This document shows positions 5,724-20,722 of a stretch of DNA of 64,000 nucleotides, piece after piece. This stretch comes from Kitasatospora paranensis (GTDB taxonomy: Bacteria; Actinomycetota; Actinomycetes; Streptomycetales; Streptomycetaceae). Positions within the stretch are counted from its first letter, which is position 1; each line of letters opens with the position of its first letter. Where the stretch lies: NCBI RefSeq assembly GCF_039544005.1, contig NZ_BAABKV010000001.1:4030001-4094000 (forward strand). Reading direction: 5' to 3'. A program made the position numbers and the translations under genes. The notes under the pieces were generated by a model, which was not told the DNA's origin, did not search any database, and saw nothing but the letters and a program-made list of their open reading frames with translations.

Positions 5724-6752
5724 TCAAATCCGGCCTGCCCTGCGCTCGGTGGCGAGCAGCCAGACCAGGTGGCCGCCGCCGAGGACGCCGGTGACGACGC
5801 CGACCGGCAGCTGGTGGCCGGGGAGGACCCGCTGCGCCGCGTAGTCGGCGGTGACCAGCAGGGCGGCGCCGGTGCACATCGCGGCGAGCAGGTTGGGGCC
5901 GGGCGCCCGGGTGAGGCGGCGGGCGAGCTGGGGGGCGGTGAGGGCGACGAAGGAGACCGGGCCGGCGGCGGCCGCGGCGAGCGCGGCGAGCAGGACGGCG
6001 CAGCCGAGCAGGGCCAGCCGGACGCGTTCGACCCGCACGCCGAGGCCGCTCGCCGCGTCGTCGCCCATCTCGATGACGCGCAGCGCGCGCCCGCAGCCGA
6101 GCAGCACGGCGGGGCCGAGCACGGCGAGGGCCACCAGCAGCGGTACGGCGTCGCGCCAGCCGCGGCCGTCGAGGCTGCCGGTCAGCCAGAGGACCGCACG
6201 GGCGGCGTCCATGAGCTGGGTGCGGGTCAGCAGGTAGCCGTTGACGCCGGTGAGGATCGCGGAGCTGCCGATGCCGATGAGGACGAGCCGGCTGCCGTGC
6301 ACCCCGCCCTTCCAGGCGAGGGCGTAGATGGCGGCGCCGCTGACCAGGCCGCCGAGCACGGCGCCGCCGGCCAGGGCCGCGCTGCTGCCGCCGGTGATCA
6401 CCACGATCAGGGCGCCGGCCGACGCGCCCTGGGTGAAGCCGAGCACGTCGGGGCTGCCGAGCGGGTTGCGGACGAGGGACTGGAAGAGTGCCCCGGCCAG
6501 CCCGAGCGCGGCGCCGACCAGCAGGGCCGTGACGACCCGCGGCAGCCGCAGCTGGTTGACGATGAAGTCCTCGGCCGGGGTGCCGCCGCCGGTGAGGGTG
6601 CGCACGACGTCGGCCGGACCGAGCGGGTAGTCGCCACTGCCGAGGGCGAGGATGCCGACGCCGAGCGCCAGCGCGGTGCAGGCCAGGCCGACGATCAGGG
6701 CCCGCGGGCGGAAGCGGACGGACAGGGTCGTCCCGATGCGGAGGGTGCTCAT
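5724..6752 (-). CDS. FecCD-family siderophore permease subunit 2
   Basis: A 342-residue polytopic inner-membrane permease of the FecCD/BtuC family with about ten membrane segments. Family blocks include LRLPRVVTALLVGAALGLAGALFQSLVRNPL, the IGIGSSAI/LTGSLDGRGW region and the C-terminal GPVSFVALTAPQLARRL. Its ATG at 6752 overlaps the stop of the preceding permease as ATGA, so the two should be produced stoichiometrically as a heterodimer. The next gene is the cognate ATPase, 35 bases on. Confidence 0.94.
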   Translation of the reverse strand: MSTLRIGTTLSVRFRPRALIVGLACTALALGVGILALGSGDYPLGPADVVRTLTGGGTPAEDFIVNQLRLPRVVTALLVGAALGLAGALFQSLVRNPLGSPDVLGFTQGASAGALIVVITGGSSAALAGGAVLGGLVSGAAIYALAWKGGVHGSRLVLIGIGSSAILTGVNGYLLTRTQLMDAARAVLWLTGSLDGRGWRDAVPLLVALAVLGPAVLLGCGRALRVIEMGDDAASGLGVRVERVRLALLGCAVLLAALAAAAAGPVSFVALTAPQLARRLTRAPGPNLLAAMCTGAALLVTADYAAQRVLPGHQLPVGVVTGVLGGGHLVWLLATERRAGRI

Positions 6753-7813
6753 GCCCGCGCCACCCTTCCCCGGCGTGCGAAGTGGAGGAAGAACGGGCCG
6801 CCGAGGACGGCGGTGACGATGCCGACCTGGAGTTCGCCGGGCCGGCCGAGGACGCGGCCCAGCACGTCCGCGCCGAGCAGCAGGACGGGGGCGAGCACCG
6901 CGCAGTACGGGAAGAGCCAGCGCAGGTCGGGGCCGGTGAGGGCGCGGACGAAGTGCGGCACCATCAGGCCGACGAAGACGATCGGGCCGCAGGCCGCGGT
7001 GGCGGCGCCGCACAGCAGCGTGACGGCGACGATCGCGGCGGCCCGGATCAGTTCGGGGCGGGCGCCGAGGGCGCGGGCCGCGTCGTCGCCGAGCGCCATG
7101 ACGTTCAGCGGCCGGGCCAGGGCGAGCGCGACGACCAGCCCGACGGCGACGAACGGCAGCACCTTCAGGACGGTGCCGCCCTGGGCCCCGGCCAGCGAAC
7201 CGACCGTCCAGAAGCGCATCTTCTCCAGGGCTCCGGCGTCCAGCAGCATCACCGCGTTGACGTAGCTGAAGAGGGTGGCGTTGAGGGCGGAGCCGGCGAG
7301 GGCGAGCCGGGCGGGGGTGGCGCCGCGACCGCCGCCGACGGCGTAGACGAGCACCGCGACGGCCGCGGTGCCGACCAGGGCGAACCAGACGTAGCCGTCG
7401 AAGGTGGCGACGCCGAGGAAGGAGGCGACGGTGACGACGGCGGCGGAGGCCCCGGCGTTGATGCCGAGCAGCCCCGGGTCGGCGAGCGGATTGCGGGTCA
7501 GCGCCTGCATCACACCGCCGGCGAGGCCGAGAGCGGATCCGCAGAGCAGGCCGAGCAGGGTGCGCGGCAGCCGCATCCGGTGGACGACGGTGTAGGCCTC
7601 GGAGTGGGCGTCGAACAGGCCGTGCCAGACCTCGACGGGTGACAGTTCGCGGGCGCCGACGCCGATGCTGAGCGCGACGACGGCGAGCAGGACGAGCACG
7701 GCGGCACCGAGCCCGGCTGCCCGCCGGACGGCCCGGCCGCCCCGGACCGGCCCGGCGGGCGGTGATGCTCCCGCCGAACCTCCTTGGTTTGGCGGTGACT
7801 TGGTGAGCGGCAC
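6749..7813 (-). CDS. FecCD-family siderophore permease subunit 1
   Basis: A 354-residue FecCD permease and first gene of the leftward operon. After a hydrophilic N-terminus of about 30 residues come multiple membrane helices with MRLPRTLLGLLCGSALGLAGGVMQALTRNPL, LGINAGAS and GPIVFVGLMVPHFVRALTGPD, the standard family landmarks. The GTG start at 7813 lies 66 bases from the iron box at 7879-7897, which also faces desE on the other strand. It pairs with the permease at 5724-6752, and the DesE lipoprotein across the promoter is the probable substrate-binding partner. Confidence 0.94.
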   Translation of the reverse strand: MPLTKSPPNQGGSAGASPPAGPVRGGRAVRRAAGLGAAVLVLLAVVALSIGVGARELSPVEVWHGLFDAHSEAYTVVHRMRLPRTLLGLLCGSALGLAGGVMQALTRNPLADPGLLGINAGASAAVVTVASFLGVATFDGYVWFALVGTAAVAVLVYAVGGGRGATPARLALAGSALNATLFSYVNAVMLLDAGALEKMRFWTVGSLAGAQGGTVLKVLPFVAVGLVVALALARPLNVMALGDDAARALGARPELIRAAAIVAVTLLCGAATAACGPIVFVGLMVPHFVRALTGPDLRWLFPYCAVLAPVLLLGADVLGRVLGRPGELQVGIVTAVLGGPFFLHFARRGRVARA

Positions 7814-7878: not shown

Positions 7879-7897
7879 TTAGGTTAGGTTAACCTAA
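7879..7897. promoter_or_regulatory. Iron box (DmdR/IdeR operator) between uptake genes and desE
   Basis: TTAGGTTAGGTTAACCTAA is a near-perfect 19-bp match to the streptomycete DmdR1/IdeR iron box (TTAGGTTAGGCTAACCTAA), differing at one central base. It lies 66 bp from the permease start on the minus strand and 48 bp before the desE ATG. One operator can therefore repress both divergent transcripts when Fe(II) is plentiful. Confidence 0.92.
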
Positions 7898-9939: not shown

Positions 9940-9958
9940 TTAGGGTAGGCTAACCTAA
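9940..9958. promoter_or_regulatory. Iron box upstream of desA
   Basis: TTAGGGTAGGCTAACCTAA matches the 19-bp iron-box consensus at all but one position. It begins 55 bp before the desA ATG and should allow iron-dependent repression of desABCD and the downstream exporter by a DmdR/IdeR protein. Confidence 0.92.
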
Positions 9959-9994: not shown

Positions 9995-11553
9995 ATGACT
10001 TTCCAGGGCCGTACCGTCGAGGTCCCGTCGGCAGGCACCACCCCCTGGTGGACGCGAGAGCGCACCTGTTCAACGGCGCAACGGTGGAGGACTACCGACG
10101 GTCCCTCACGGCCGGGATCGACCGCGTCGCCGCCCGGATCGCCGGCACCGAGCGGCCGTTCACCGGAATCACCCCCGACCGGCTCGCCCCCGAGATATCC
10201 GCCGTCGACCTGGACCGCCCGCTCGGCGACCCGGCCGAAGCCCTCGCCGAGCTGGAGGACGTCTACCTCCGCGACGCCGTCTACTTCCACCACCCCCGCT
10301 ACCTCGCCCACCTCAACTGCCCGGTGGTCATCCCCGCACTGCTCGGCGAGGCCGTCCTCACCGCCGTCAACTCCTCGCTGGACACCTGGGACCAGAGCGC
10401 CGGCGGCACCCTCATCGAACGCCGCCTGATCGACTGGACGGCCGAGCGGATCGGCCTCGGCCCGGACGCCGACGGCGTCTTCACCAGCGGCGGCAGCCAG
10501 TCCAACTTCCAGGCCATGCTGCTCGCCCGCGAGGAGGCCTGCGACCGGGCCTCCGCCGACTCACCCGTGCCGATCGCCAAGCAGGACATCCTGCCGCGCC
10601 TGCGCATCATCGCCTCCGAGGCCGGCCACTTCAGCGTGCAGAAGTCCGCGAAGATGCTCGGCCTCGGCCCGGACGCCGTCATCACGGTCGGCACCGACCG
10701 GCACCGCAGGATGAACCCCGCCGCACTCGCCCGCGAGATCGACCGCTGCCGCCGCGAGGACCTTCGGGTGATGGCCGTCGTCGGCACCGCCGGCACCACC
10801 GACTTCGGCTCCATCGACCCGCTCCCGCAGATCGCCGACCTGTGCGCCGACGCGGGCCTGTGGCTGCACGTCGACGCCGCGTACGGCTGCGGCCTGCTCG
10901 CCTCGCGCACCCGCCGCGACCTGCTCGACGGCATCGAGCGGGCCCACTCGGTCACCGTCGACTACCACAAGTCCTTCTTCCAGCCCGTCAGTTCCAGCGC
11001 CCTGCTGGTCCGGGACGGCGCCGCGCTCCGGCACGCCACGTACTACGCCGACTACCTCAACCCGGCCCGGATGGCGAAGCGCCGGATCCCCAACCAGGTC
11101 GACAAGTCCGTCCAGACCACCCGCCGGTTCGACGCCCTCAAGCTCTGGCTGACCCTGCGCGTCATGGGCGCCGACGCGATCGGCGCGCTCTTCGACGAGG
11201 TCGTGGACCGCGCCACCGAGGCCTACGACCTGCTGGCCGAGGACCCGCGCTTCGAGGTCGTCACCCGCTCCCAACTCAGCACCGTCGTCTTCCGCTGGCT
11301 GCCGCCCGCCGGCCCGCTGCGGGCCCTCGCCGACGAGGCCAACCTGCACGCCCGCGAGGCCCTCGCCGCCTCCGGCGAGGCCGTCGTCGCCGGCACCAAG
11401 GTCGACGGCCACCACTACCTCAAGTTCACCCTGCTCAACCCGGAGACCACGCTGGACGACATCGCGCACGTCCTCGACCTCCTCGCCGAGCACGCCGGCC
11501 GCTACGTCAACGACCGGACGGCCGCCCCCGAACTCTGCCGCGCCGCCGGCTGA
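9995..11553 (+). CDS. desA: Lysine decarboxylase DesA (PLP-dependent), N-terminal frameshift
   Basis: A group II PLP-dependent decarboxylase, about 519 residues after correction, making cadaverine from lysine for desferrioxamine synthesis. Conserved blocks are [56 protein letters not shown] and the PLP-lysine motif [16 protein letters not shown] 9995 follows a GAGGG site, but its frame reads only to the C5 run at 10041-10045; adding one C gives [22 protein letters not shown] in the main frame. A TTG at 9982 keeps the main frame without repair but gives an unrelated, Arg/His/Pro-rich N-terminus, so it is less likely. First gene of desABCD. Confidence 0.92.
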
Positions 11554-11585: not shown

Positions 11586-12878
11586 ATGTCCACCCACGAC
11601 TTCATCGCCATCGGCCTCGGGCCGTACAACCTCGGCCTCGCCTGCCTCGCCGAGCCCGTCGACGGCCTCGACGGGGTGTTCCTGGAGAGCAAGCCAGACT
11701 TCGACTGGCACCCCGGGATGCTGCTGGACTTCGCCACCCTGCAGACGCCGTTCATGGCCGACCTGGTCACCCTCGCCGACCCGACCTCGCCGTACTCCTT
11801 CCTCAACTACCTGAAGTGGTCCGGCCGGCTGTACCCGTTCTACATCCGCGAGATGTTCTATCCCGTCCGTGCCGAGTACAACGCGTACTGCCGCTGGGCC
11901 GCCGCCCGGCTGCGCACCGTCCGCTTCGGCCACCGGGTGACCCTGGTCGAGTGGGACGACGCGGACGGCCTCTACACCGTCACCTCCGGGACCGCCGACG
12001 GGACGGCGGTGCACCGCGCGCCGCGGCTCGTGCTCGGCACCGGCACGCCGCCGCACCTGCCCGACGCCTGCCGGGGGCTCGGCGGCGACTTCCTGCACAA
12101 CTCCGGCTACCTGGAGGGCAAGGCCGCGCTCCAGGGCAAGGAGTCGATCACGGTCGTCGGCAGTGGCCAGAGCGCCGCCGAGATCTACTACGACCTGCTC
12201 GCCGAGGTCGACGTGCACGGCTACCGGCTCGACTGGGTGACCCGCTCGCCGCGGTTCTTCCCGCTGGAGTACACCAAGCTCACCCTGGAGATGACCTCCC
12301 CCGAGTACGTGGACTACTTCCACGCCCTCCCCGAGGCCACCCGCTACCGCCTGGAGGCCGAACAGAAGGGCCTGTTCAAGGGCATCGACGCCGACCTCAT
12401 CAACTCCGTCTACGACCTGCTCTACCAGAAGAGCGTCACCGGCCCCGTCCCCACCCGGCTGATGACCAACACCGCCCTGCGCAGCGCCACGTACGACGAG
12501 ACCGCCCACACCTACACCCTCGGCCTCCACCACGCCGAGCAGGAAAGGGACTTCACCCTGCGCACCCAGGGTCTGGTGCTGGCCACCGGGTACACCTACC
12601 GCCCGCCGGCGTTCCTTGAGCCGATCCACGACCGGATCCGCTGGGACGGCCGGGGCCGGTTCGACATCGCCCGCAACTACAGCATCGACACCACGGGCCG
12701 CGGCGTCTTCCTGCAGAACGGCGGCACCCACACCCACAGCCTCACCTCCCCCGACCTCGGCATGGGCCCGTACCGGAACTCGTGGATCCTGCGCGAGCTC
12801 ACCGGCCGCGAGGTCTACCCGATCGAGAAGAGCATCGCCTTCCAGGAGTTCGGCGCACCGGAGGGCGTCGCATCGTGA
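11586..12878 (+). CDS. desB: Cadaverine N-hydroxylase DesB (FAD/NADPH)
   Basis: A 430-residue flavin-dependent N-hydroxylating monooxygenase of the IucD/RhbE family that converts cadaverine to N-hydroxycadaverine. It shows the FAD motif [13 protein letters not shown] at the N-terminus, the substrate-region signature [16 protein letters not shown], the NADPH motif [15 protein letters not shown] and the C-terminal [12 protein letters not shown]. The ATG at 11586 lies 32 bases after desA with GGGAGA upstream. Its stop overlaps the desC start as GTGA. Confidence 0.97.
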
Positions 12879-13444
12879 ACCGCTTCACCCGCACCGCCCC
12901 CGGGATCGGCGACCTCGCGATCCGTCCGCTCGACCCGGACGCCGACGCCGCCCTGCTGCACGCCTGGGTCACCCACCCCAAGGCCGCGTACTGGATGATG
13001 CAGGACGCCGACCTCGACGCCGTCCGCAGCGAGTACCGCCGGATCACCGAACACCCCCACCACGACGCCTGGCTGGGCCTGCTCGACGGCACGCCCGCCT
13101 TCCTGGTCGAGCGCTACGACCCGGCCCGGCTGGAGCTGGTCGGGCTGTACGACGCCGAACCCGGCGACGTCGGCATGCACTTCCTCTGCGCCCCGAGCGA
13201 CACGCCCGTGCACGGCTTCACGCGGGCCGTCATCACCACGGTCATGGCGTTCCTGTTCGCCGACCCGGCCACCCGTCGCGTCGTGGTCGAGCCGGACGTC
13301 CGCAACACCGCCGTGCACACCCTCAACGCGGCCGTCGGCTTCGACGTCGTCGGCCCGATCGACAAGCCCGAGAAGCAGGCGCTGCTGAGCGTCTGCACCC
13401 GCGCGGCCTTCGAACGCACCACCACCGCAGGAGCCGCCCGATGA
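12875..13444 (+). CDS. desC: Hydroxycadaverine acyltransferase DesC (GNAT)
   Basis: A 189-residue GNAT acyltransferase that N-acylates N-hydroxycadaverine; DesC of S. coelicolor is known to accept acetyl-, succinyl- and longer acyl-CoA. Landmarks are [27 protein letters not shown], the central [10 protein letters not shown] strand, and [21 protein letters not shown] followed by IDKPEKQA. The GTG at 12875 overlaps the desB stop and its own stop overlaps the desD ATG, giving tight translational coupling. The protein at 2251-2826 has the same blocks. Confidence 0.96.
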
Positions 13445-15216
13445 GCCCCGTCGCCCACCTCCGCCCGGACACCTGGGCCGCCGCCAACCGGCTGCTCGTC
13501 CGCAAGGCCCTCGCCGAGTTCTCCCACGAGCGGCTGCTCACCCCCGAACAGCAGAGCGACGGCTCTTGGACCGTCCGCAGCGACGACGGCGCCACCGTCT
13601 ACCGGTTCGCCGCCCGACTGCGCGCCCTCGACCACTGGGAGATCCCCGCCGAATCCGTCACCCGCCACCGCGACGGCGACGAACTCCGGCTCGAAGCGCT
13701 GGACTTCTTCATCGAACTGCGCAAGACCCTCGGCCTCTCGGACGAGGTGCTGCCGGTCTACCTGGAGGAGATCGGCTCCACCCTCGCGGGCACCGCCTAC
13801 AAGCTCGACAAGCCGGCGCTCTCCGCCGCCGAACTCGCCGGGGCCGACTTCCAGGCCGTCGAGACCGGCATGACCGAGGGCCACCCCGGCTTCGTCGCCA
13901 ACAACGGCCGGATCGGCTTCGGCGGCGAGGAGTACCACCGGTACGCGCCAGAGGCCGCCGCCCCGCTGCGGCTGGTCTGGCTGGCCGCGCACCGCGACCA
14001 CTCGGTGTTCACCTCCTGCACCGACATCGACTACGACACCCTGATGCAGCAGGAGTTGGGCACCGCGCAGCTCGCCCGCTTCGGCACCGCGCTGGCGGAT
14101 CTCGGCCTCGACCCGGCCGCCTACCACCTCTTCCCGGTGCACCCCTGGCAGTGGCAGCACAAGCTGTCCGTCACCTTCGCCGGCGAACTCGCCCAGCGCC
14201 GCCTGGTCCACCTCGGCGAGGGCGACGACGAATACCTCGCCCAGCAGTCGATCCGCACCTTCTTCAACATCACGGACCCGTCCAAGCACTATGTGAAGAC
14301 GGCCATCTCGGTACTCAACATGGGCTTCATGCGGGGCCTGTCGGCCGCCTACATGGAGGCCACCCCGGCGATCAACGACTGGCTCGCACGGCTGATCGAC
14401 CACGACGAGGTGCTGCGCGGCACCGGCCTGACGATCATCCGCGAACACGCCGCCATCGGCTACCGGCACCGCCAGTACGAGGCCGCCACCGACCGGTACT
14501 CGCCGTACCGCAAGATGCTCGCCGCACTCTGGCGCGAGAGCCCGGTGCCCGGCCTCGAGCCCGGACGGCGCCTGGCCACCATGGCCTCCCTGCTGCACAC
14601 CGACCGCGACGGCCGCTCGCTCGCCGCCGCCCTGGTCGCGCAGTCCGGCCTGCCCGCCGAGCAGTGGCTGCGGCGCTACCTGGACGCCTACCTCACCCCG
14701 CTGCTGCACAGCTTCTACGCCTACGACCTGGCGTTCATGCCGCACGGCGAGAACACCATCCTGGTGCTGAACGGCGGCGTCGTGGAGCGGGCGATCTTCA
14801 AGGACATCGCCGAGGAGATCGTCGTCATGGACCCGGACGCGGCGCTGCCGCCCGCCGTCCAGCGGGTGCGCGCGGACGTCCCCGAGTCCATGAAACTGCT
14901 GTCGATCTTCACCGACGTCTTCGACTGCTTCCTGCGCTACCTCAATGCCGTCCTGGCCGCCGAGGACGTGCTCGACGAGGACGCGTTCTGGCGCACCGTC
15001 GCCGCATGCGTCGCCGACCACCGCGACTCCGTGCCGCACCTGGCCGAGAAGTTCGAGCGGTACGACCTGTTCGCACCCGAGTTCGCCCTGTCCTGCCTCA
15101 ACCGGCTCCAGCTGCGCAACAACCGGCAGATGGTCGACCTCGCCGACCCGTCCGCCGCCCTCCAGCTCGTCGGCACCCTGGTGAACCCGATCGCCCGGTT
15201 CGCCCCCGAGCGGTGA
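13441..15216 (+). CDS. desD: Desferrioxamine synthetase DesD (NIS synthetase)
   Basis: A 591-residue NRPS-independent siderophore (IucA/IucC) synthetase. It adenylates succinylated hydroxycadaverine units and couples them into tris-hydroxamate desferrioxamines such as B and E. Family motifs are GHPGFVANNGRIGFG, FPVHPWQWQHK, the SIRTFFNITDPSKHYVKTAI nucleotide/substrate region, FMPHGENTILVLNGGV and the C-terminal FHUF-like region LNRLQLRNNRQM. Both ends overlap neighbours by four bases (ATGA with desC, GTGA with the exporter), so it is central to one polycistronic unit behind the iron box at 9940. Confidence 0.97.
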   Translation: MSPVAHLRPDTWAAANRLLVRKALAEFSHERLLTPEQQSDGSWTVRSDDGATVYRFAARLRALDHWEIPAESVTRHRDGDELRLEALDFFIELRKTLGLSDEVLPVYLEEIGSTLAGTAYKLDKPALSAAELAGADFQAVETGMTEGHPGFVANNGRIGFGGEEYHRYAPEAAAPLRLVWLAAHRDHSVFTSCTDIDYDTLMQQELGTAQLARFGTALADLGLDPAAYHLFPVHPWQWQHKLSVTFAGELAQRRLVHLGEGDDEYLAQQSIRTFFNITDPSKHYVKTAISVLNMGFMRGLSAAYMEATPAINDWLARLIDHDEVLRGTGLTIIREHAAIGYRHRQYEAATDRYSPYRKMLAALWRESPVPGLEPGRRLATMASLLHTDRDGRSLAAALVAQSGLPAEQWLRRYLDAYLTPLLHSFYAYDLAFMPHGENTILVLNGGVVERAIFKDIAEEIVVMDPDAALPPAVQRVRADVPESMKLLSIFTDVFDCFLRYLNAVLAAEDVLDEDAFWRTVAACVADHRDSVPHLAEKFERYDLFAPEFALSCLNRLQLRNNRQMVDLADPSAALQLVGTLVNPIARFAPER

Positions 15217-16775
15217 CCGCCGCCACCGGGGCGGCCACCGGGCCGGGAAGCGACGCGGGCACCGGGCCGGACACCGAGGCGGGAGCTGCCACCGGACGGC
15301 CGCCCGCCCGGTGGCTCGTCCTCGCGGTGGTCTGCCTCGTCCAGCTCGCGGTCGTCCTCGACAACACCGTGCTGGGCGTCGCCGTGCCGTCCCTCACCCG
15401 GGACCTCGGCGCCGGCACCGCCGACCTCCAGTGGATCGTCAACGCCTACTCGCTCGTCCAGGCCGGGCTGCTGCTCGCCGCGGGCAGCGCCGCCGACCGC
15501 TACGGCCGCCGCCGGCTGATGCTCCTCGGCCTGGCGGTCTTCGGACTCGGCTCGCTGGCCGCCGGGCTCTCCCACACGACCGGCCGGCTGATCGCCGCCC
15601 GCGCCGTCATGGGAGTCGGCGGGGCACTGCTGCTCACCACCACCCTCGCCGTCGTCCTGCAGGTCTTCGACGGACCGGAGCGCACCCGGGCGATCGGGGT
15701 CTGGAGCGCGGTCAGCGCGCTCGGCTACGCGGCCGGGCCGCCGATCGGCGGCCTGCTGCTCGCCCACTTCGCCTGGGGCTCGCTCTTCCTGGTCAACCTG
15801 CCGGTGGTGCTGCTCGGGCTCCTCGCCGGGCGGGCGCTCGTCCCGGAGTCCCGCAGCCCCCGCGGCGGGCCGCCCGACCTGACCGGCGTGCTGCTCTCCA
15901 CCGTCGGGGTGACCGCCGTCGTGGGCGCGATCGTCTCCGGCCCGGAGCACGGCTGGTCGTCCGCGCAGGTCCTCGGTCCGGCCGCGGCCGGGCTCCTCGC
16001 GCTGACCGCCTTCGTCCGCTGGGAGCTGCGCTGCCCGCACCCCATGCTCGACCTCGGGTTCTTCCGGGACCGCCGGTTCGTGGGAGCGGTGACCGGCGTC
16101 GTCCTGATCACCTTCGGCAGCACCGGCGTGCTGTTCCTGCTCACGCAGCAGCTCCAGTTCGTCCGCGGGTACGAGCCCTTGGAGGCCGGGCTGCGGATGG
16201 CACCGTTCGCCCTCACCGTCGTCGCCCTCAACTTCACCGGTCTGGCCGCCCGGGTGACCGCCCGGCTCGGCACCCCGCGCTCGATCGCCGCCGGCATGGC
16301 GATCCTGGCGGCCGGCTTCGCCGTCGCCGCGCTCGCCGGCGGGGGCTACGGCCCGCTACTGGTGGGTCTGCTGCTGATGGGCACCGGCTGCGCGCTGGCC
16401 AACCCGGCCATCGTCGCGGCCGTGCTGGACGCCATCCCGCCGGAGCGGGCGGGGGCCGGCGCGGGCGTCGACGGCACCATGGCCGAGGTCGGCGGCAGCC
16501 TCGGCGTGGCCGTGCTCGGCGCCGTGCTGAACGCCCGGTTCGCCGCCCTGCTGCCGGCCGGGGCCGCCGCCGGCTCGCTGCCCGCCGCCCTCGCCACGGC
16601 CGGGACGGACGGCGAGCGGTCGGCCGTCCTGGACGCCTTCGCGGCCGCCTCCCGAAGCGGACAGCTCGCGGGCGCGGGCGCCGTCCTGGCCGGCGGCCTG
16701 ACCGCCGCCGCCCTGCTGCGCCGGGCCGACCGGCGGGCGGAGCGGCAGGCACGGGCACCGTCGGGCACCGCCTAG
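15213..16775 (+). CDS. MFS exporter of the DHA2/EmrB-QacA type, probable desferrioxamine efflux pump
   Basis: A 520-residue major facilitator. After about 35 flexible residues come roughly 14 membrane helices. DHA2 signatures include VVLDNTVLGVAVPSLTRDLG in the first helix, LQWIVNAYSLVQAGLLLAAGSAADRYGRRR (motif A) and LGYAAGPPIGGLLL (motif C). The GTG start at 15213 overlaps the desD stop (GTGA), which makes co-expression with siderophore synthesis very likely. Export of desferrioxamine is inferred from position; the family alone would equally allow multidrug efflux. The following methyltransferase gene starts 10 bases after its stop, so transcription may continue into the AviR-like genes. 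Confidence 0.92.
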   Translation: MTAATGAATGPGSDAGTGPDTEAGAATGRPPARWLVLAVVCLVQLAVVLDNTVLGVAVPSLTRDLGAGTADLQWIVNAYSLVQAGLLLAAGSAADRYGRRRLMLLGLAVFGLGSLAAGLSHTTGRLIAARAVMGVGGALLLTTTLAVVLQVFDGPERTRAIGVWSAVSALGYAAGPPIGGLLLAHFAWGSLFLVNLPVVLLGLLAGRALVPESRSPRGGPPDLTGVLLSTVGVTAVVGAIVSGPEHGWSSAQVLGPAAAGLLALTAFVRWELRCPHPMLDLGFFRDRRFVGAVTGVVLITFGSTGVLFLLTQQLQFVRGYEPLEAGLRMAPFALTVVALNFTGLAARVTARLGTPRSIAAGMAILAAGFAVAALAGGGYGPLLVGLLLMGTGCALANPAIVAAVLDAIPPERAGAGAGVDGTMAEVGGSLGVAVLGAVLNARFAALLPAGAAAGSLPAALATAGTDGERSAVLDAFAAASRSGQLAGAGAVLAGGLTAAALLRRADRRAERQARAPSGTA

Positions 16776-16784
16776 GATCGCCGT

Positions 16785-17720
16785 ATGTCGGACAGGGGAA
16801 GCCGCGGGGCACCGCGCCAGGGACGAAGCGGACCGCACCAGGAGCCGGGCCGGGTGCCCACAGGGGCGGCAGCGCCCGCCCGGGCCGGTGCCGTCCACCG
16901 GGTGTCCACCCGCAACGCGCAGTTCCAGACCTGGCAGGCGCTGCTGGCCAACCGGAACAAGCGGCAGCGGCAGGGCGAGTTCCTCATCCACGGGGTCCGG
17001 CCGATCACGCTGGCCCTGGAGTACGGCTGGCCGCTGCACCGGCTGCTCCACCCGGCCGGCCAGCGCCTGTCGGCCTGGGCCCAGGGCGTCCTGCGGGACA
17101 GCGGCATCCCGGTGAGCGAGGTCGCCCCGGAACTGCTGGCCGAACTCGGCGAACGCGAGGACACCGCACCGGAGCTGGTGGCCGTCGCCGCGCTCGGCTC
17201 GGACGACTTCGGACGACTGCCCGTCGGCCCGGACTTCCTCGGCGTCGCCTTCGACCGGCCGACCAACCCCGGCAATATCGGCACCCTCACCCGGTCCGCG
17301 GACGCCTTCGGGGCGTCCGGCCTGATCGTCACCGGCCACGCCGCCGACGTCTACGACCCGAAGTCGGTGCGGGCCAGTACGGGTTCGCTCTTCAAGCTGC
17401 CGGTGATCCGCAGCGCGGCGCCGTCCGACGTACTGGAGTGGGTCGTCGCCCAGCGCGAGCGCGGCGTGCCGGTGAAGATCGTCGGCACCGACGAGCACGG
17501 CGAGACCTCGGTCGACGCGTGCGACCTCACCGGTCCCGTCCTGCTCGTCGTCGGCAACGAGACCGTCGGCATGAGCAAGACCTGGCGCGAGATCTGCGAC
17601 GAGGTCGTCAGCATCCCGATCGGCGGGGCCGCGAGCTCGCTCAACGCCGCCTCGGCCGGCACCCTGATGCTGTACGAGGCCGCCCGGCAGCGCGGGTTCC
17701 CCGGCGGAAAGCGGCCCTGA
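16785..17720 (+). CDS. AviRb-like 23S rRNA (uridine 2'-O) methyltransferase, TrmH/SpoU family
   Basis: A 311-residue SPOUT methyltransferase. After a disordered basic N-terminus of ~40 residues comes STRNAQFQTWQALLANRNKR and the substrate-binding domain EFLIHGVRPITLALEYGWPL. The catalytic domain has motif 1 DRPTNPGNIGTLTRSADAFG, motif 2 LLVVGNETVGMS and motif 3 SIPIGGAASSLNAASAG. By memory it resembles AviRb of the avilamycin producer, which methylates the ribose of U2479. The match includes GHAADVYDPKSVRASTGSLF and VGTDEHGE, which ordinary TrmH proteins lack. The next gene is AviRa-like, strengthening the call. Predicted role: ribosomal protection against orthosomycins. ATG 16785 is ten bases after the exporter stop. 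Confidence 0.85.
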   Translation: MSDRGSRGAPRQGRSGPHQEPGRVPTGAAAPARAGAVHRVSTRNAQFQTWQALLANRNKRQRQGEFLIHGVRPITLALEYGWPLHRLLHPAGQRLSAWAQGVLRDSGIPVSEVAPELLAELGEREDTAPELVAVAALGSDDFGRLPVGPDFLGVAFDRPTNPGNIGTLTRSADAFGASGLIVTGHAADVYDPKSVRASTGSLFKLPVIRSAAPSDVLEWVVAQRERGVPVKIVGTDEHGETSVDACDLTGPVLLVVGNETVGMSKTWREICDEVVSIPIGGAASSLNAASAGTLMLYEAARQRGFPGGKRP

Positions 17721-17818
17721 GCGAAGCGGGCAGCAGCCCTGAGCGAGGCGGGCAGCGGGCCTGAGCGCCGAGGCCGGCCGGGACGGCCGGACCGGCCCGG
17801 CTGCCTAGGATTGGGCCC

Positions 17819-18556
17819 ATGAGCTACCGGCACGTGACCGACAGAGCCGACTACGCGGACTTCGCCGGCGGCGCCGTGCTGCGGTCCGCACCCGGGTTCC
17901 CGGCCTTTCCGGTCAGACTCGGCTCGGAAATCTTCCAGCGGGCGATGGCGCTGCGCGGCAGCGACCGGCCCGCGGTGCTCTGGGACCCGTGCTGCGGCAG
18001 CGGCTACCTGCTGACCGTGCTCGGCCTGCTGCACCGCCGCTCGATCGGAGCCGTGCTCGCCACCGACGCCGCCGAGCCCGCGCTGGATCTCGCCCGCCGG
18101 AACCTCGCCCTGCTCGACCCGCGGGCCCTGCGGGAGCGGGCCGCGGAACTGGACGCCCGGGCGGAGGAGTTCGGCAAGCCCTCGTACCGGGAGGCCGCCG
18201 AGTCCGCCCGCCGGCTCGGCCGCACCCTCGCCGAGGACGGCGGCCCACTCCCGGCCACCGCCCGCCGGGCCAACGCCTTCGACCGCGCGGAGCTGACCGC
18301 TGCGGTGGCAGGCATCGCTCCGGATGTCGTCCTCACCGACGTCCCCTACGGCGAGCAGACCGACTGGCTGGGCGCGGACGACGACGCCGGGGTGCCCGAG
18401 ATGCTCACCGCGGTGGCCTCCGCCCTGCCCGACCGGGCGGTGCTCGCGGTGACCGTCCGCGGCCGCCGTGTCCCGCTCGGCGGCATCAGGGCCCGCGAGT
18501 CCTTCAAGATCGGCACCCGGGCGGTCGCCCTGCTGACGGCGGACCAACTGCGCTGA
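17819..18556 (+). CDS. AviRa-like 23S rRNA (guanine) methyltransferase
   Basis: A 245-residue Rossmann methyltransferase of the AviRa family, which methylates a guanine of 23S rRNA (G2535 in the avilamycin producer). The SAM motif is WDPCCGSGYLLTVLGLLHRR, followed by VLATDAAEPALDLARRNLALL; the catalytic motif IV is VVLTDVPYGEQTDW. A helical insertion between them (about residues 100-150) is characteristic. The start is ATG 17819. It follows the AviRb-like gene by 98 bases containing short imperfect repeats. The pairing of two chemically different methyltransferases acting near the orthosomycin site is the classic avilamycin resistance arrangement. No orthosomycin biosynthesis gene is in this window. 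Confidence 0.85.
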   Translation: MSYRHVTDRADYADFAGGAVLRSAPGFPAFPVRLGSEIFQRAMALRGSDRPAVLWDPCCGSGYLLTVLGLLHRRSIGAVLATDAAEPALDLARRNLALLDPRALRERAAELDARAEEFGKPSYREAAESARRLGRTLAEDGGPLPATARRANAFDRAELTAAVAGIAPDVVLTDVPYGEQTDWLGADDDAGVPEMLTAVASALPDRAVLAVTVRGRRVPLGGIRARESFKIGTRAVALLTADQLR

Positions 18557-18650: not shown

Positions 18651-19869
18651 GGCGTCAGCGGTGTCGAGGGTGTTGTCGAGCCAGTCGTAGATGCGGGCCT
18701 GGGTCAGGCGCATGGCCCCGGGGTGGCAGTGGGCGCCGGCGCCCTCCTCGGTGCTGAAGAGCATGAGGGTCCTGGGGCAGGTGAGGTGGTCGTAGAGCTG
18801 CTCGGGCTGGCCCTTGAAGAACATGTCGTCCTCGGCGTCGCAGACCAGGGTGGGGCACCGGATCTGTTCGGCGATGCCGCCGGCGAGGGTGTAGTCGAGG
18901 TAGGAGGCGTTGAACGCGCGGGGGTGTCGGCGCCCATGACGTACATGCCGTGGTTGATCGCCCAGCGGGCGATCGGGTCCGCGCTCATGATCCGCTCGAA
19001 GGCGGCGTCGAGCTCCGGGGCGGAGTCGGCGCGCAGCATCTGCTCGGCCTGCTCGCGGCTGCCGGGGATGTTGCGGACGGAGGTCTGGCCGAGGTCGTAG
19101 AGGCCGTCGACGGCGACGAGTGCGGCGAGGCGGTGCTCGAAGGCGGCGGCGCGGGGGCGAGGATGCCGCCCATGCTGATGCCGAGCAGCGCGATGCGGTT
19201 GTTGTCGACGTCGGGGAGGGTCTCGGCGAAGTCCACGACGGGGGTGATGACGTTCTCCCAGTCGGGGCGGAAGACCAGGTCCTGGTGGTGGCGCGGGCCG
19301 GGCATGCCGGGGCCGTCGAAGACCAGCACGTTGTAGCCGCGTTCGACGCCGGCCATCGCGCCGAAGAAGTGCAGTTCCTCGGCGGTGCCGTCGAAGCCGT
19401 TGTGCATGACGAGGGTGGGCCGCGGGGTGCCGGAGTCGTCGACCCGGTACAGGTAGCCGGGCAGGGTGGTGTCCTCGTAGGGGATGGCGACCGGTTCGAT
19501 GCGCGGGGTGAACAGGGCGGCCGCGGACCGGAAGCAGGCCACGCTGCGGTCGTAGGCGTGGTCGTGGCGGGGGTCGCAGGGCCGGCCGTGCAGGAAGAAC
19601 TCGGCCGAGCGGTAGTAGTTCGACGCCCGCAGGTAGCCGTCGCGGGCGCTGATCCGGTGGCCGGCCTTCAGCGCCTTGTCCGCCTCGGCGGCGACCCGGT
19701 CGGCGGTGGCCGTCCACTCGGTGTACCAGCTGCCGTAGTCGCCCTCGACGATGCGCTCGCCGGTCGAGACGACCTCGCCGAAGTCGGCGCCACCGTAGGC
19801 GATGTGGCTCATCGAGCGCAGGGTCTCGTACCAGAACTGGATGTTGTTCGGGAACAGCAGCTGCTTCAT
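18642..19869 (-). CDS. Alpha/beta hydrolase (acyl-peptidase / pseudooxynicotine hydrolase-like), two frameshifts
   Basis: About 409 residues after correction. An N-terminal helical cap (MKQLLFPNNIQFWYETLRSM to ~residue 130) precedes the hydrolase fold: HNGFDGTAEE, the nucleophile elbow GISMGG, the acid in TLVCDAEDDMFFKGQPEQLYDHL and the catalytic His in GAGAHCHPGAMRL. Two breaks lie in G5 runs on the plus strand, 19153-19157 and 18920-18924. One added base in each gives APRAAAFEHRL and GADTPRAFNASYLDYT. No secretion signal. It diverges from the TetR gene, with two palindromes between, so TetR repression is probable. The substrate is unknown; cyclic amide or aryl-ketone hydrolysis is possible for this cap architecture. 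Confidence 0.85.
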
Positions 19870-19903
19870 CGGAGGCCCTCCTGGAGGCTCGACGCTCTCT
19901 ACT

Positions 19904-19921
19904 AAGCACGGATCTGTGCTT
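19904..19921. promoter_or_regulatory. TetR-type operator, hydrolase-proximal copy
   Basis: AAGCACGGATCTGTGCTT has perfect 6-bp arms (AAGCAC/GTGCTT) around six bases. It is 35 bp upstream of the hydrolase start and shares outer bases ACTAAGCA and CTGTGCTT with the second copy 50 bp away. Likely bound by the adjacent TetR protein. Confidence 0.75.
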
Positions 19922-19953
19922 GCGTGGACGACTGTAGACCCCTCGGGGGCACT

Positions 19954-19971
19954 AAGCAAACGTCTGTGCTT
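19954..19971. promoter_or_regulatory. TetR-type operator, regulator-proximal copy
   Basis: AAGCAAACGTCTGTGCTT keeps AAGCA/TGCTT arms and aligns with the copy at 19904 over 12 of its 18 bases. It ends 11 bp before the TetR GTG start, between promoter and ribosome-binding site. This suits autorepression. Confidence 0.72.
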
Positions 19972-19982
19972 ACGATGGAGGG

Positions 19983-20579
19983 GTGCCCCAGAAACAGCCC
20001 GCCGAACGCATCCGCAAGAGCCCCGAACAGGTCCGGGCGGCCGTCCACCAAGCAGTCATCGACCTGCTGGCCGCCCCTGACGGCGCCGAGCCCACCATCC
20101 CCGCCATTGCGCAACGCGCCGGCGTCAACCACACCAGCATCTACCGCCGTTGGGGAAGCCGGGAGGCCCTGCTCGCCGACGTCGTCACCACCCGACTGGA
20201 AAGCACCTCACCACTGCTCGACACCGGCAGCCTGCGCGGCGACCTCACCGCCTGGGCCCAGGCCGGCGTCGACAGCATCCGCACCCCCGAAGGCCGCGTC
20301 CTCATCCGAGCCGTCGCCCTGTCCATGCCGACCAGCCCCGAGGCACAGAGCGAGCGCGGCCAGCACTTCCGGCGCCGCATGAGCTCCATCGAGCGCATCC
20401 GCGAACGGGCCACCGCCCGCGGCGAGGTCCCCCCGCCGCTGGAGGACATCTTCGACCAGCTCCTCGCCCCGTTCTACGTCCGCGTCATCTTCGGCATCGA
20501 CCCACCCGCCACCGGCTATCCCGAAACCCTCGTCAACCGCCTGCTCGGCCCCGAAGGTGCGGCAACGGACACAACGTGA
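19983..20579 (+). CDS. TetR-family transcriptional regulator
   Basis: A 198-residue TetR repressor. Residues ~10-60 form the DNA-binding domain (SPEQVRAAVHQAVIDLLAA, IPAIAQRAGVNHTSIYRRWGSREALLADVV). The ligand-binding domain resembles the TetR_C_11/16 group (GDLTAWAQAGVDSIRTPEGRVLIRAVAL). The GTG start at 19983 has GGAGG directly before it. It is divergent from the hydrolase at 18642-19869 and flanked by two similar palindromes, so it probably represses that gene and itself. The inducer is likely a hydrolase substrate, by inference. Confidence 0.93.
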   Translation: MPQKQPAERIRKSPEQVRAAVHQAVIDLLAAPDGAEPTIPAIAQRAGVNHTSIYRRWGSREALLADVVTTRLESTSPLLDTGSLRGDLTAWAQAGVDSIRTPEGRVLIRAVALSMPTSPEAQSERGQHFRRRMSSIERIRERATARGEVPPPLEDIFDQLLAPFYVRVIFGIDPPATGYPETLVNRLLGPEGAATDTT

Positions 20580-20640: not shown

Positions 20641-20648
20641 CTTCATGG

Positions 20649-20722
20649 AGCCGCCTTCGGGATTCGAACCCGAGACCTACGCATTACGAGTGCGTTGCTC
20701 TGGCCAACTGAGCTAAGGCGGC
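20649..20722 (-). tRNA. tRNA-Thr (anticodon CGT)
   Basis: Read on the minus strand, the sequence folds as a 74-nt tRNA. The acceptor stem is GCCGCCT/AGGCGGC with a T discriminator base, the D arm is GCTC...GAGC, and the anticodon stem ACGCA/TGCGT encloses loop CTCGTAA. The T arm is TCGGG TTCGAAT CCCGA. The anticodon CGT reads ACG (Thr). CCA is not encoded. A strong hairpin follows at 20609-20640. Confidence 0.97.

Follow-up and report, generated by a model that had tools for sequence, protein, structure and literature searches.

The 64,000-nucleotide stretch of the Kitasatospora paranensis genome analysed here (contig NZ_BAABKV010000001.1, positions 4,030,001 to 4,094,000; the window, below) carries two adjacent methyltransferase genes related to those of AviRb and AviRa, the avilamycin self-protection pair. 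A sequence-only reading of the window had described them as a SPOUT uridine 2'-O-methyltransferase gene next to an AviRa-type guanine methyltransferase gene, and the reading frames, Pfam domains and PDB matches bear this description out. Both genes lie on the same strand, with 98 bases between them:

16785..17720, plus strand: AviRb-type SPOUT 2'-O-ribose methyltransferase gene, ATG at 16785, 311 amino acids, frame intact
17819..18556, plus strand: AviRa-type 23S rRNA guanine methyltransferase gene, ATG at 17819, 245 amino acids, frame intact

The best PDB match of the window AviRb was 1x7o (E 6e-106, 357 bits), the runner-up being 1ipa, an RNA 2'-O-ribose methyltransferase (E 6e-31, 111 bits). 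Its L30e-like (PF22655, 116 bits) and SpoU (PF00588, 110 bits) domains each scored above the Pfam cut-off, and the protein fell far under the NCBIfam cut-offs of RlmB, NshR/TsnR and TrmH. As judged by sequence, it is closer to AviRb than to RlmB, RlmP/MRM3, TrmH or the thiostrepton-resistance enzymes. Three other SpoU-type matches were found in the genome, 26-40% identical to AviRb; given these separate matches and the score gaps we rejected a housekeeping TrmH/RlmB identity, and the closest homologues are not the housekeeping TrmH and RlmA-type proteins that the sequence-only reading had said would count against it. An alternative AviRb start exists at GTG 16854, but similarity to the relatives in another Kitasatospora genome (G052) and in Actinomadura kijaniata (locus L071) extends to residue 1.

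For the window AviRa, 1o9g and 1o9h were the sole PDB matches up to E = 1 (1o9g, E 1.3e-78), and the Pfam AviRa family PF11599 was matched over positions 1-232 of 232 at 236 bits (cut-off 25.7). The PDB titles of the matched structures read merely 'rRNA methyltransferase'. We take 1o9g to be AviRa, and the AviRb of Streptomyces curacoi, our positive control, was near-identical to 1x7o in the alignment. The window pair represents, at full length, the same two enzyme families as AviRa and AviRb of the avilamycin cluster of Streptomyces viridochromogenes Tu57 (1o9g, 1x7o/1x7p); a table in PMC12123411 lists 1X7P as AviRB of that species. Scanned for defence systems with PADLOC, AviRb matched nothing and AviRa gave only a weak, partial mad2 match (35 bits). 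Three degenerate 22-base tandem repeats (17704-17769) begin in the closing codons of AviRb and extend into the spacer that separates it from AviRa.

The window genome (G000; 8.41 Mb, single contig) contains one AviRa and one AviRb gene. A genome search for orthosomycin clusters, proposed as a check in the sequence-only reading, found none. No AviO1-like orthoester synthase was detected genome-wide at E <= 1e-12, nor with an alignment model at E <= 0.001, every first-look candidate in this genome having been scored. The PhyH family PF05721 had 0 matches in the window genome, compared to 9 in the S. curacoi control and 11 in G052. The AviM-type iterative polyketide synthase had one genome match at E <= 1e-100 (37% over 870 of 1258 residues, within an 1838-amino-acid frame), while the S. 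curacoi control matched at 100% and full length; on this alignment, the genome lacks the AviM-type synthase of an orthosomycin cluster. The reference structure for AviO1 was 4xaa, which we take to be AviO1 itself: in S. curacoi, the oxygenase of the same cluster as AviRb matched it over its full length (E 5e-150). AviO1 forms the orthoester, and EvdO1, EvdO2 and HygX are its homologues (PMC8234114).

Nor were orthosomycin-type genes seen among the 23 other window proteins scanned with Pfam, and for these proteins the earlier statement that no orthosomycin oligosaccharide or polyketide genes lie in the window holds. The sole ABC transporter gene among the scanned proteins was a FecCD siderophore-uptake permease (6749-7699), with no genome-wide search made for avilamycin-type ABC transporters. 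In S. curacoi the two methyltransferase genes are convergent, about 1.2 kb apart and within an avilamycin-type cluster, whereas in the window they are in tandem with no cluster found. With no AviO1, no PhyH and only a partial AviM-like match, we rejected the idea of an orthosomycin cluster elsewhere in the genome; very probably, then, the strain makes no orthosomycins. The absence of AviO1 and PhyH matches, with nine PhyH matches in the S. curacoi control, supports the earlier suggestion of an environmental resistance cassette.

To see how common this situation is, we scanned named species genomes, finding 99 AviRa relatives, of which 80 loci were kept with flanks of 10 kb at most (shorter at contig ends). 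An AviRb gene (at least about 50% identity) lay within the flanks at 31 of the 80. Together with the window and G052 this makes 33 pairs, arranged as tandem AviRb-AviRa (17), convergent (10), divergent (3) or tandem AviRa-AviRb (3). The AviO1 search covered G000 and 48 of the 80 genomes, including all 31 with a pair; left out were L104, 29 Nocardiopsis, one Marinactinospora and one Streptomonospora. Matches at E <= 0.001 were seen in 27 of the 49 searched genomes. Strong matches (E <= 5.7e-86) occurred in only seven (L069, L075, L079, L082, L085, L090, L111), the next genome standing at 3.3e-12. It should be noted that one row of the AviO1 alignment (A2) was wrong, being a methyltransferase-domain protein that adjoins AviO1, so that relatives of this protein were also listed; the strong AviO1 matches are clear of these. 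The seven include S. curacoi and Micromonospora sp. ATCC 39149, presumably, from its number, the evernimicin producer M. carbonacea var. africana ATCC 39149.

A strong AviO1 was present in 4 of the 31 pair genomes (L069, L082, L085, L090) and lacking in the other 27; orphan pairs are the majority among the pairs found. There is no conserved third gene of the pair, the most widespread neighbour family within 5 kb occurring at 7 of the 31 pair loci. A simple caller written for this analysis supplied the gene calls in these loci; it overlooked the MFS gene of L189. Two Micromonospora genomes that lack a strong AviO1 have a PhyH-type gene adjoining AviRb (L083 8314-9126, L087 8261-9055), and the family of this gene also occurs in clusters L069, L085 and L111 (assigned by Pfam for L083 only, and for L087 by membership of the same gene family). 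The 27 orphan pairs may therefore be 25.

The distribution of AviRa is patchy. The gene was found at full length in 2 of 70 genomes of the genus (G000 and G052), 7 of 394 genomes at the family level and 26 of 394 at the class level (22 of these in one family), and in 0 of 14 control genomes. AviRa matches were present in 9 of the 70 genus genomes at E <= 0.001 and in 3 over the cut-off, the seven besides G000 and G052 being short partials. AviRb was more frequent, with 17 of the 70 at E <= 1e-60, 15 of them without full-length AviRa. Six genus genomes matched AviO1 at E <= 1e-12. In four of them (G048, G009, G042, G020) an AviO1-like gene of 44-47% identity lies about 7 kb from AviRb, and all four are among the 15 with AviRb and no full-length AviRa; the matches in the other two (G060, G064) are weaker (31-33% identity), and both genomes lack AviRb. 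The pair was also seen on a linear 273-kb plasmid of Streptomyces camelliae, as an AviRa-AviRb tandem 59 bases apart (AviRa 50%, AviRb 66%). Weaker AviRa-like matches occurred on two Rhizobium plasmids, and none of 72,556 plasmid records had an AviO1-like match at E <= 1e-8. Four other records (NZ_CP045850, NZ_CP027859, NZ_CP086233 [S. clavuligerus megaplasmid] and NZ_CP108678) contain an AviRb-like gene of 60-62% identity with no annotated feature under it, and no AviRa match at E <= 1e-5.

In trees of both proteins (all extracted proteins having their first residue set to M, even where the true start was not found), the window pair grouped with those of G052, Dactylosporangium roseum (L069), A. 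kijaniata (L071) and Nonomuraea spiralis (L072), with support of 0.99 and 1.00. The window AviRb is 70-72% identical to these four, compared to 56-62% for the solo AviRb of its own genus (eight of the fifteen aligned). The window AviRa sits in a part of the tree with AviRb-linked genes, apart from Nocardiopsis, and distances in the AviRa and AviRb trees are correlated (r 0.58, 0 of 2000 permutations), with host relatedness as a confounder.

The surroundings of the related pairs differ. G052, the sole other carrier in the genus, has a divergent pair that is not with the desferrioxamine operon; in the 40 kb around it, the called genes matching the window are AviRb, AviRa and a second SpoU-type gene (32% identical), and its neighbours are an AraC-type regulator and a DEAD-box helicase with DUF3418. 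The D. roseum pair (AviRb 71% and AviRa 67% identical to the window) belongs to the same clade for both proteins; it differs in having AviRa before AviRb, 1.9 kb apart, with a strong AviO1 12.5 kb away and a weaker PhyH-type match 17.7 kb away. The orphan pairs of A. kijaniata and N. spiralis are, as in the window, tandems of AviRb then AviRa, and have no strong AviO1, only weak matches (best E 1e-10 and 3e-7, respectively). Beyond the methyltransferases, the L069, L071 and L072 loci gave just two weak matches to window genes and none to the desferrioxamine operon. The grouping of the window pair with other actinomycete lineages in both trees suggests that the pair probably travelled as a unit, a view favoured also by the identities, the distance correlation, the differing surroundings and the tandem on the plasmid.

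In the window, the pair lies between a desferrioxamine-type operon and a tRNA-Thr gene:

7879..7897, no strand assigned: iron-box-like palindrome ahead of the siderophore-binding-protein gene, one mismatch from the iron-box consensus
9940..9958, no strand assigned: iron-box-like palindrome ahead of the desA-like gene, one mismatch from the iron-box consensus
10048..11553, plus strand: DesA-like pyridoxal decarboxylase, start uncertain, resembling its relatives from 10000 onwards
11586..12878, plus strand: DesB-like lysine N6-monooxygenase (Pfam)
12875..13444, plus strand: DesC-like acyltransferase (Pfam)
13441..15216, plus strand: DesD-like IucA/IucC siderophore synthetase (Pfam)
15213..16775, plus strand: MFS exporter, final gene of the desferrioxamine-type operon, stop TAG at 16773-16775, 9 bases before AviRb
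18659..19869, minus strand: alpha/beta-hydrolase gene in the variable segment, frame broken between 19182 and 19144, and between 18946 and 18917
19983..20579, plus strand: TetR-family regulator in the variable segment (Pfam)
20646..20722, minus strand: tRNA-Thr(CGU), bounding the variable segment on the right, with G029 and G049 becoming similar again at its 3' end

DNA similarity to three relatives (G029, G049, G038) breaks off within the final codons of the MFS gene (16719-16737); for G029 and G049 it resumes at 20648, the 3' end of tRNA-Thr(CGU); the G038 stretch compared stopped short of the tRNA. The window-specific segment of 3.9 kb thus delimited holds AviRb, AviRa, the broken alpha/beta-hydrolase gene and the TetR gene. 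At the same slot, G029 has PPK2, P-type ATPase, ValS and glutamyl-type tRNA synthetase genes (Pfam), and in G038 and G049 it is taken up by genes of comparable size and identical order, ValS included; in G053, G059 and G068 other genes adjoin the MFS gene.

We propose, with a probability of roughly 0.74, that the window holds an orthosomycin-resistance pair of the avilamycin self-resistance type which reached a non-producer by horizontal transfer. Family identity, intact frames, the lack of orthosomycin marker enzymes, patchy distribution, recurrent linkage and differing genomic places are computed results; the methylation sites, the resistance phenotype, the direction of transfer and expression we infer. 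U2479 and G2535 of 23S rRNA (E. coli numbering) lie at the orthosomycin binding region. According to its title, a 2003 paper by Treede et al. reportedly assigned methylation of the 2'-OH of U2479 to AviRb and of the base of G2535 to AviRa. By homology to the S. viridochromogenes enzymes, whose target sites these are, the window AviRb would add a 2'-O-methyl group to U2479 and the window AviRa would methylate the base of G2535, and both methylations would lower orthosomycin binding at the large-subunit site. The U2479 ribose is given as the AviRb target in PMC12772374, and the orthosomycin site is described as distinct from the macrolide and thiostrepton sites in PMC6804068. Since no orthosomycin pathway was found in the strain, the pair would protect against orthosomycins made by neighbours. 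It would have been acquired horizontally as a two-gene unit and placed in the variable segment between the desferrioxamine operon and tRNA-Thr.

Several observations weigh against this proposal. There is no integrase among the genes of the variable segment and no second copy of the tRNA-Thr end within the window, and therefore no mobile element is demonstrated; insertion by a tRNA-directed integrase was considered, as similarity resumes at the tRNA-Thr 3' end, but is not claimed for these two reasons. The GC content is not foreign. Two Streptosporangium loci (L070, L073), neither with AviRb in its flanks, form the nearest outgroup of the window clade in the larger AviRa tree. The 27 orphan-pair genomes are partly drafts, many of them with weak PhyH-type matches, and the AviO1 scoring covered just 61 first-look candidates in many genomes, out of as many as 98. 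Lastly, each genome has a single ValS, which in both G000 (at 3.07 Mb) and G052 lies elsewhere than the slot; the relatives that define the slot are therefore themselves rearranged. A simple replacement, with the PPK2/P-type ATPase/ValS/GluRS-type block as the ancestral content, was dropped on these grounds. The genes following ValS in G000 (429, 218, 215 and 448 amino acids) and G052 (452, 218, 213 and 472) are presumably, from size alone, its usual clp/tig neighbours. In G038, G029 and G049 (L190, L191 and L193, respectively) the sole valyl-tRNA synthetase gene adjoins the desferrioxamine operon.

Three other explanations have to be weighed against acquired orthosomycin resistance. The pair might protect against a non-orthosomycin antibiotic that binds near the same rRNA helices and is made by the strain or its neighbours. 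The S. camelliae plasmid pair fits this idea: biosynthetic genes near it include those for dTDP-sugars, a KS III-type enzyme and a cytochrome P450, and the plasmid has no AviO1. The rRNA methyltransferase ManE offers a precedent, being described in PMC13372681 as protecting its producer from an unrelated ribosome drug. However, even the most frequent neighbour family within 5 kb reaches just 7 of the 31 pair loci, which means that there is no recurring alternative cluster, and the close relative in D. roseum sits in an orthosomycin-type cluster; we consider this explanation unlikely. That same D. roseum pair, the one member of the window clade in such a cluster, would fit a remnant or detached border of an orthosomycin cluster once present in the lineage and then lost, as would the four genus genomes with an AviO1-like enzyme about 7 kb from AviRb. 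Those four are AviRb-only, outside the window clade and without full-length AviRa, though, and neither a PhyH or AviO1 match in the genome nor a cluster fragment among the 23 Pfam-scanned window proteins was found, making a lost cluster quite improbable. The border of an antibiotic cluster elsewhere, the other option raised by the sequence-only reading, is likewise unsupported as far as orthosomycin clusters go, clusters of other kinds in the window genome not having been searched for.

The third explanation, that these are housekeeping rRNA modification enzymes with no role in resistance, draws on Nocardiopsis. At L115, L117 and L119-L148, nearly all from Nocardiopsis, AviRa occurs without AviRb in its flanks and with neighbour families common to up to 26 loci. 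In that group AviRa has the appearance of a resident gene, not of one acquired for resistance, and an AviRa relative can therefore be resident, a further point against acquisition. The window AviRa stands apart from Nocardiopsis, in the AviRb-linked part of the tree; full-length AviRa is present in just 2 of the 70 genus genomes; and the other SpoU-type matches of the genome are separate and at most 40% identical. A housekeeping role is the least credible of the three, and we give it very little weight.

The placement of the pair raises the question of its expression. The sequence-only reading had put a siderophore exporter upstream of it, and indeed the MFS gene closes the desferrioxamine-type operon; the spacing it gave between the MFS stop and the AviRb start is close, as it said, but measures 9 bases and not 10. 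Siderophore-binding and siderophore-interacting protein genes also precede the pair, ahead of the desA-like gene, and three operon junctions overlap by 4 bases. Both iron-box-like sites were seen on both strands, with 0 sites in 100 shuffles, and 6 of 6 relatives scanned had an iron box in the desferrioxamine region, with 0 to 3 mismatches to the 19-bp consensus. PMC12161575 describes the iron boxes of DmdR1 and connects them with desferrioxamine genes. Neither a promoter nor a terminator consensus was detected between 16000 and 19000, which is weak evidence at this GC content. Co-transcription of AviRb and AviRa with the desferrioxamine operon is plausible, and, because AviRb starts 9 bases after the last gene of an operon with near-perfect iron boxes, expression of the pair may be iron-controlled. 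We advance only tentatively, as a rather doubtful extension, that an iron-repressed desferrioxamine operon captured the pair as its two final genes, with orthosomycin protection switched on by iron starvation. If true, this would be a resistance module wired to the siderophore regulon, tying ribosome modification to competition for iron, and a testable case of antibiotic resistance under iron control. No title or abstract start found in the literature linked avilamycin, siderophores or iron and a methyltransferase in this way.

The interest of the pair lies in its common orphan state as well as in possible iron control. Beyond orthosomycin clusters the avilamycin self-protection pair is widespread; it occurs there as a two-gene unit, in each of the four arrangements and in one case on a linear plasmid, and orphan pairs would form a natural reservoir of probable orthosomycin resistance. 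This wide occurrence makes AviRa or AviRb alone weaker beacons for orthosomycin genome mining. A literature search of titles and abstract starts, with most subscription journals outside its reach, found no survey of orphan AviRb-AviRa pairs, although a prior one may exist. Xnr_4256 of Streptomyces albidoflavus J1074, proposed as an AviRb orthologue by reciprocal BLAST (PMC12772374), is likewise an AviRb candidate in a streptomycete; that suggestion is sequence-based, and the paper does not mention AviRa.

Further features of these loci deserve mention. Besides the hydrolase, frames are broken in the siderophore-interacting protein gene (window 9724) and a TAP-like hydrolase (about 22760); together with a genome completeness of 96% for a one-contig assembly, this suggests base-call errors, with decay as the alternative. 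Between the divergent hydrolase and TetR genes, two similar dyad-like repeats (window 19901-19974) are likely a TetR operator. The one neighbour recurring within the clade of the window pair is an AraC-type regulator with a DJ-1/PfpI domain, found near the pair in G052 (L028 17288-18235) and A. kijaniata (L071 439-1458) and 57% identical between the two, and it is possible that it regulates the pair in both. A related regulator lies at L115 4538-5491, and the window pair has no such neighbour.

Within the genus, L042 933-11418 (G048), L043 443-9800 (G042) and L044 10040-19400 (G009) are candidate orthosomycin-type clusters without full-length AviRa. L042, the one scanned with Pfam, contains an AviO1-like oxygenase (4xaa, E 1.8e-52), glycosyltransferases, a polysaccharide pyruvyl transferase, a HAD hydrolase and AviRb. 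In G020, the AviO1-like gene and AviRb are spaced as in these three genomes. Clusters of this type are possibly a new orthosomycin class, in which self-protection would be provided by a single enzyme.

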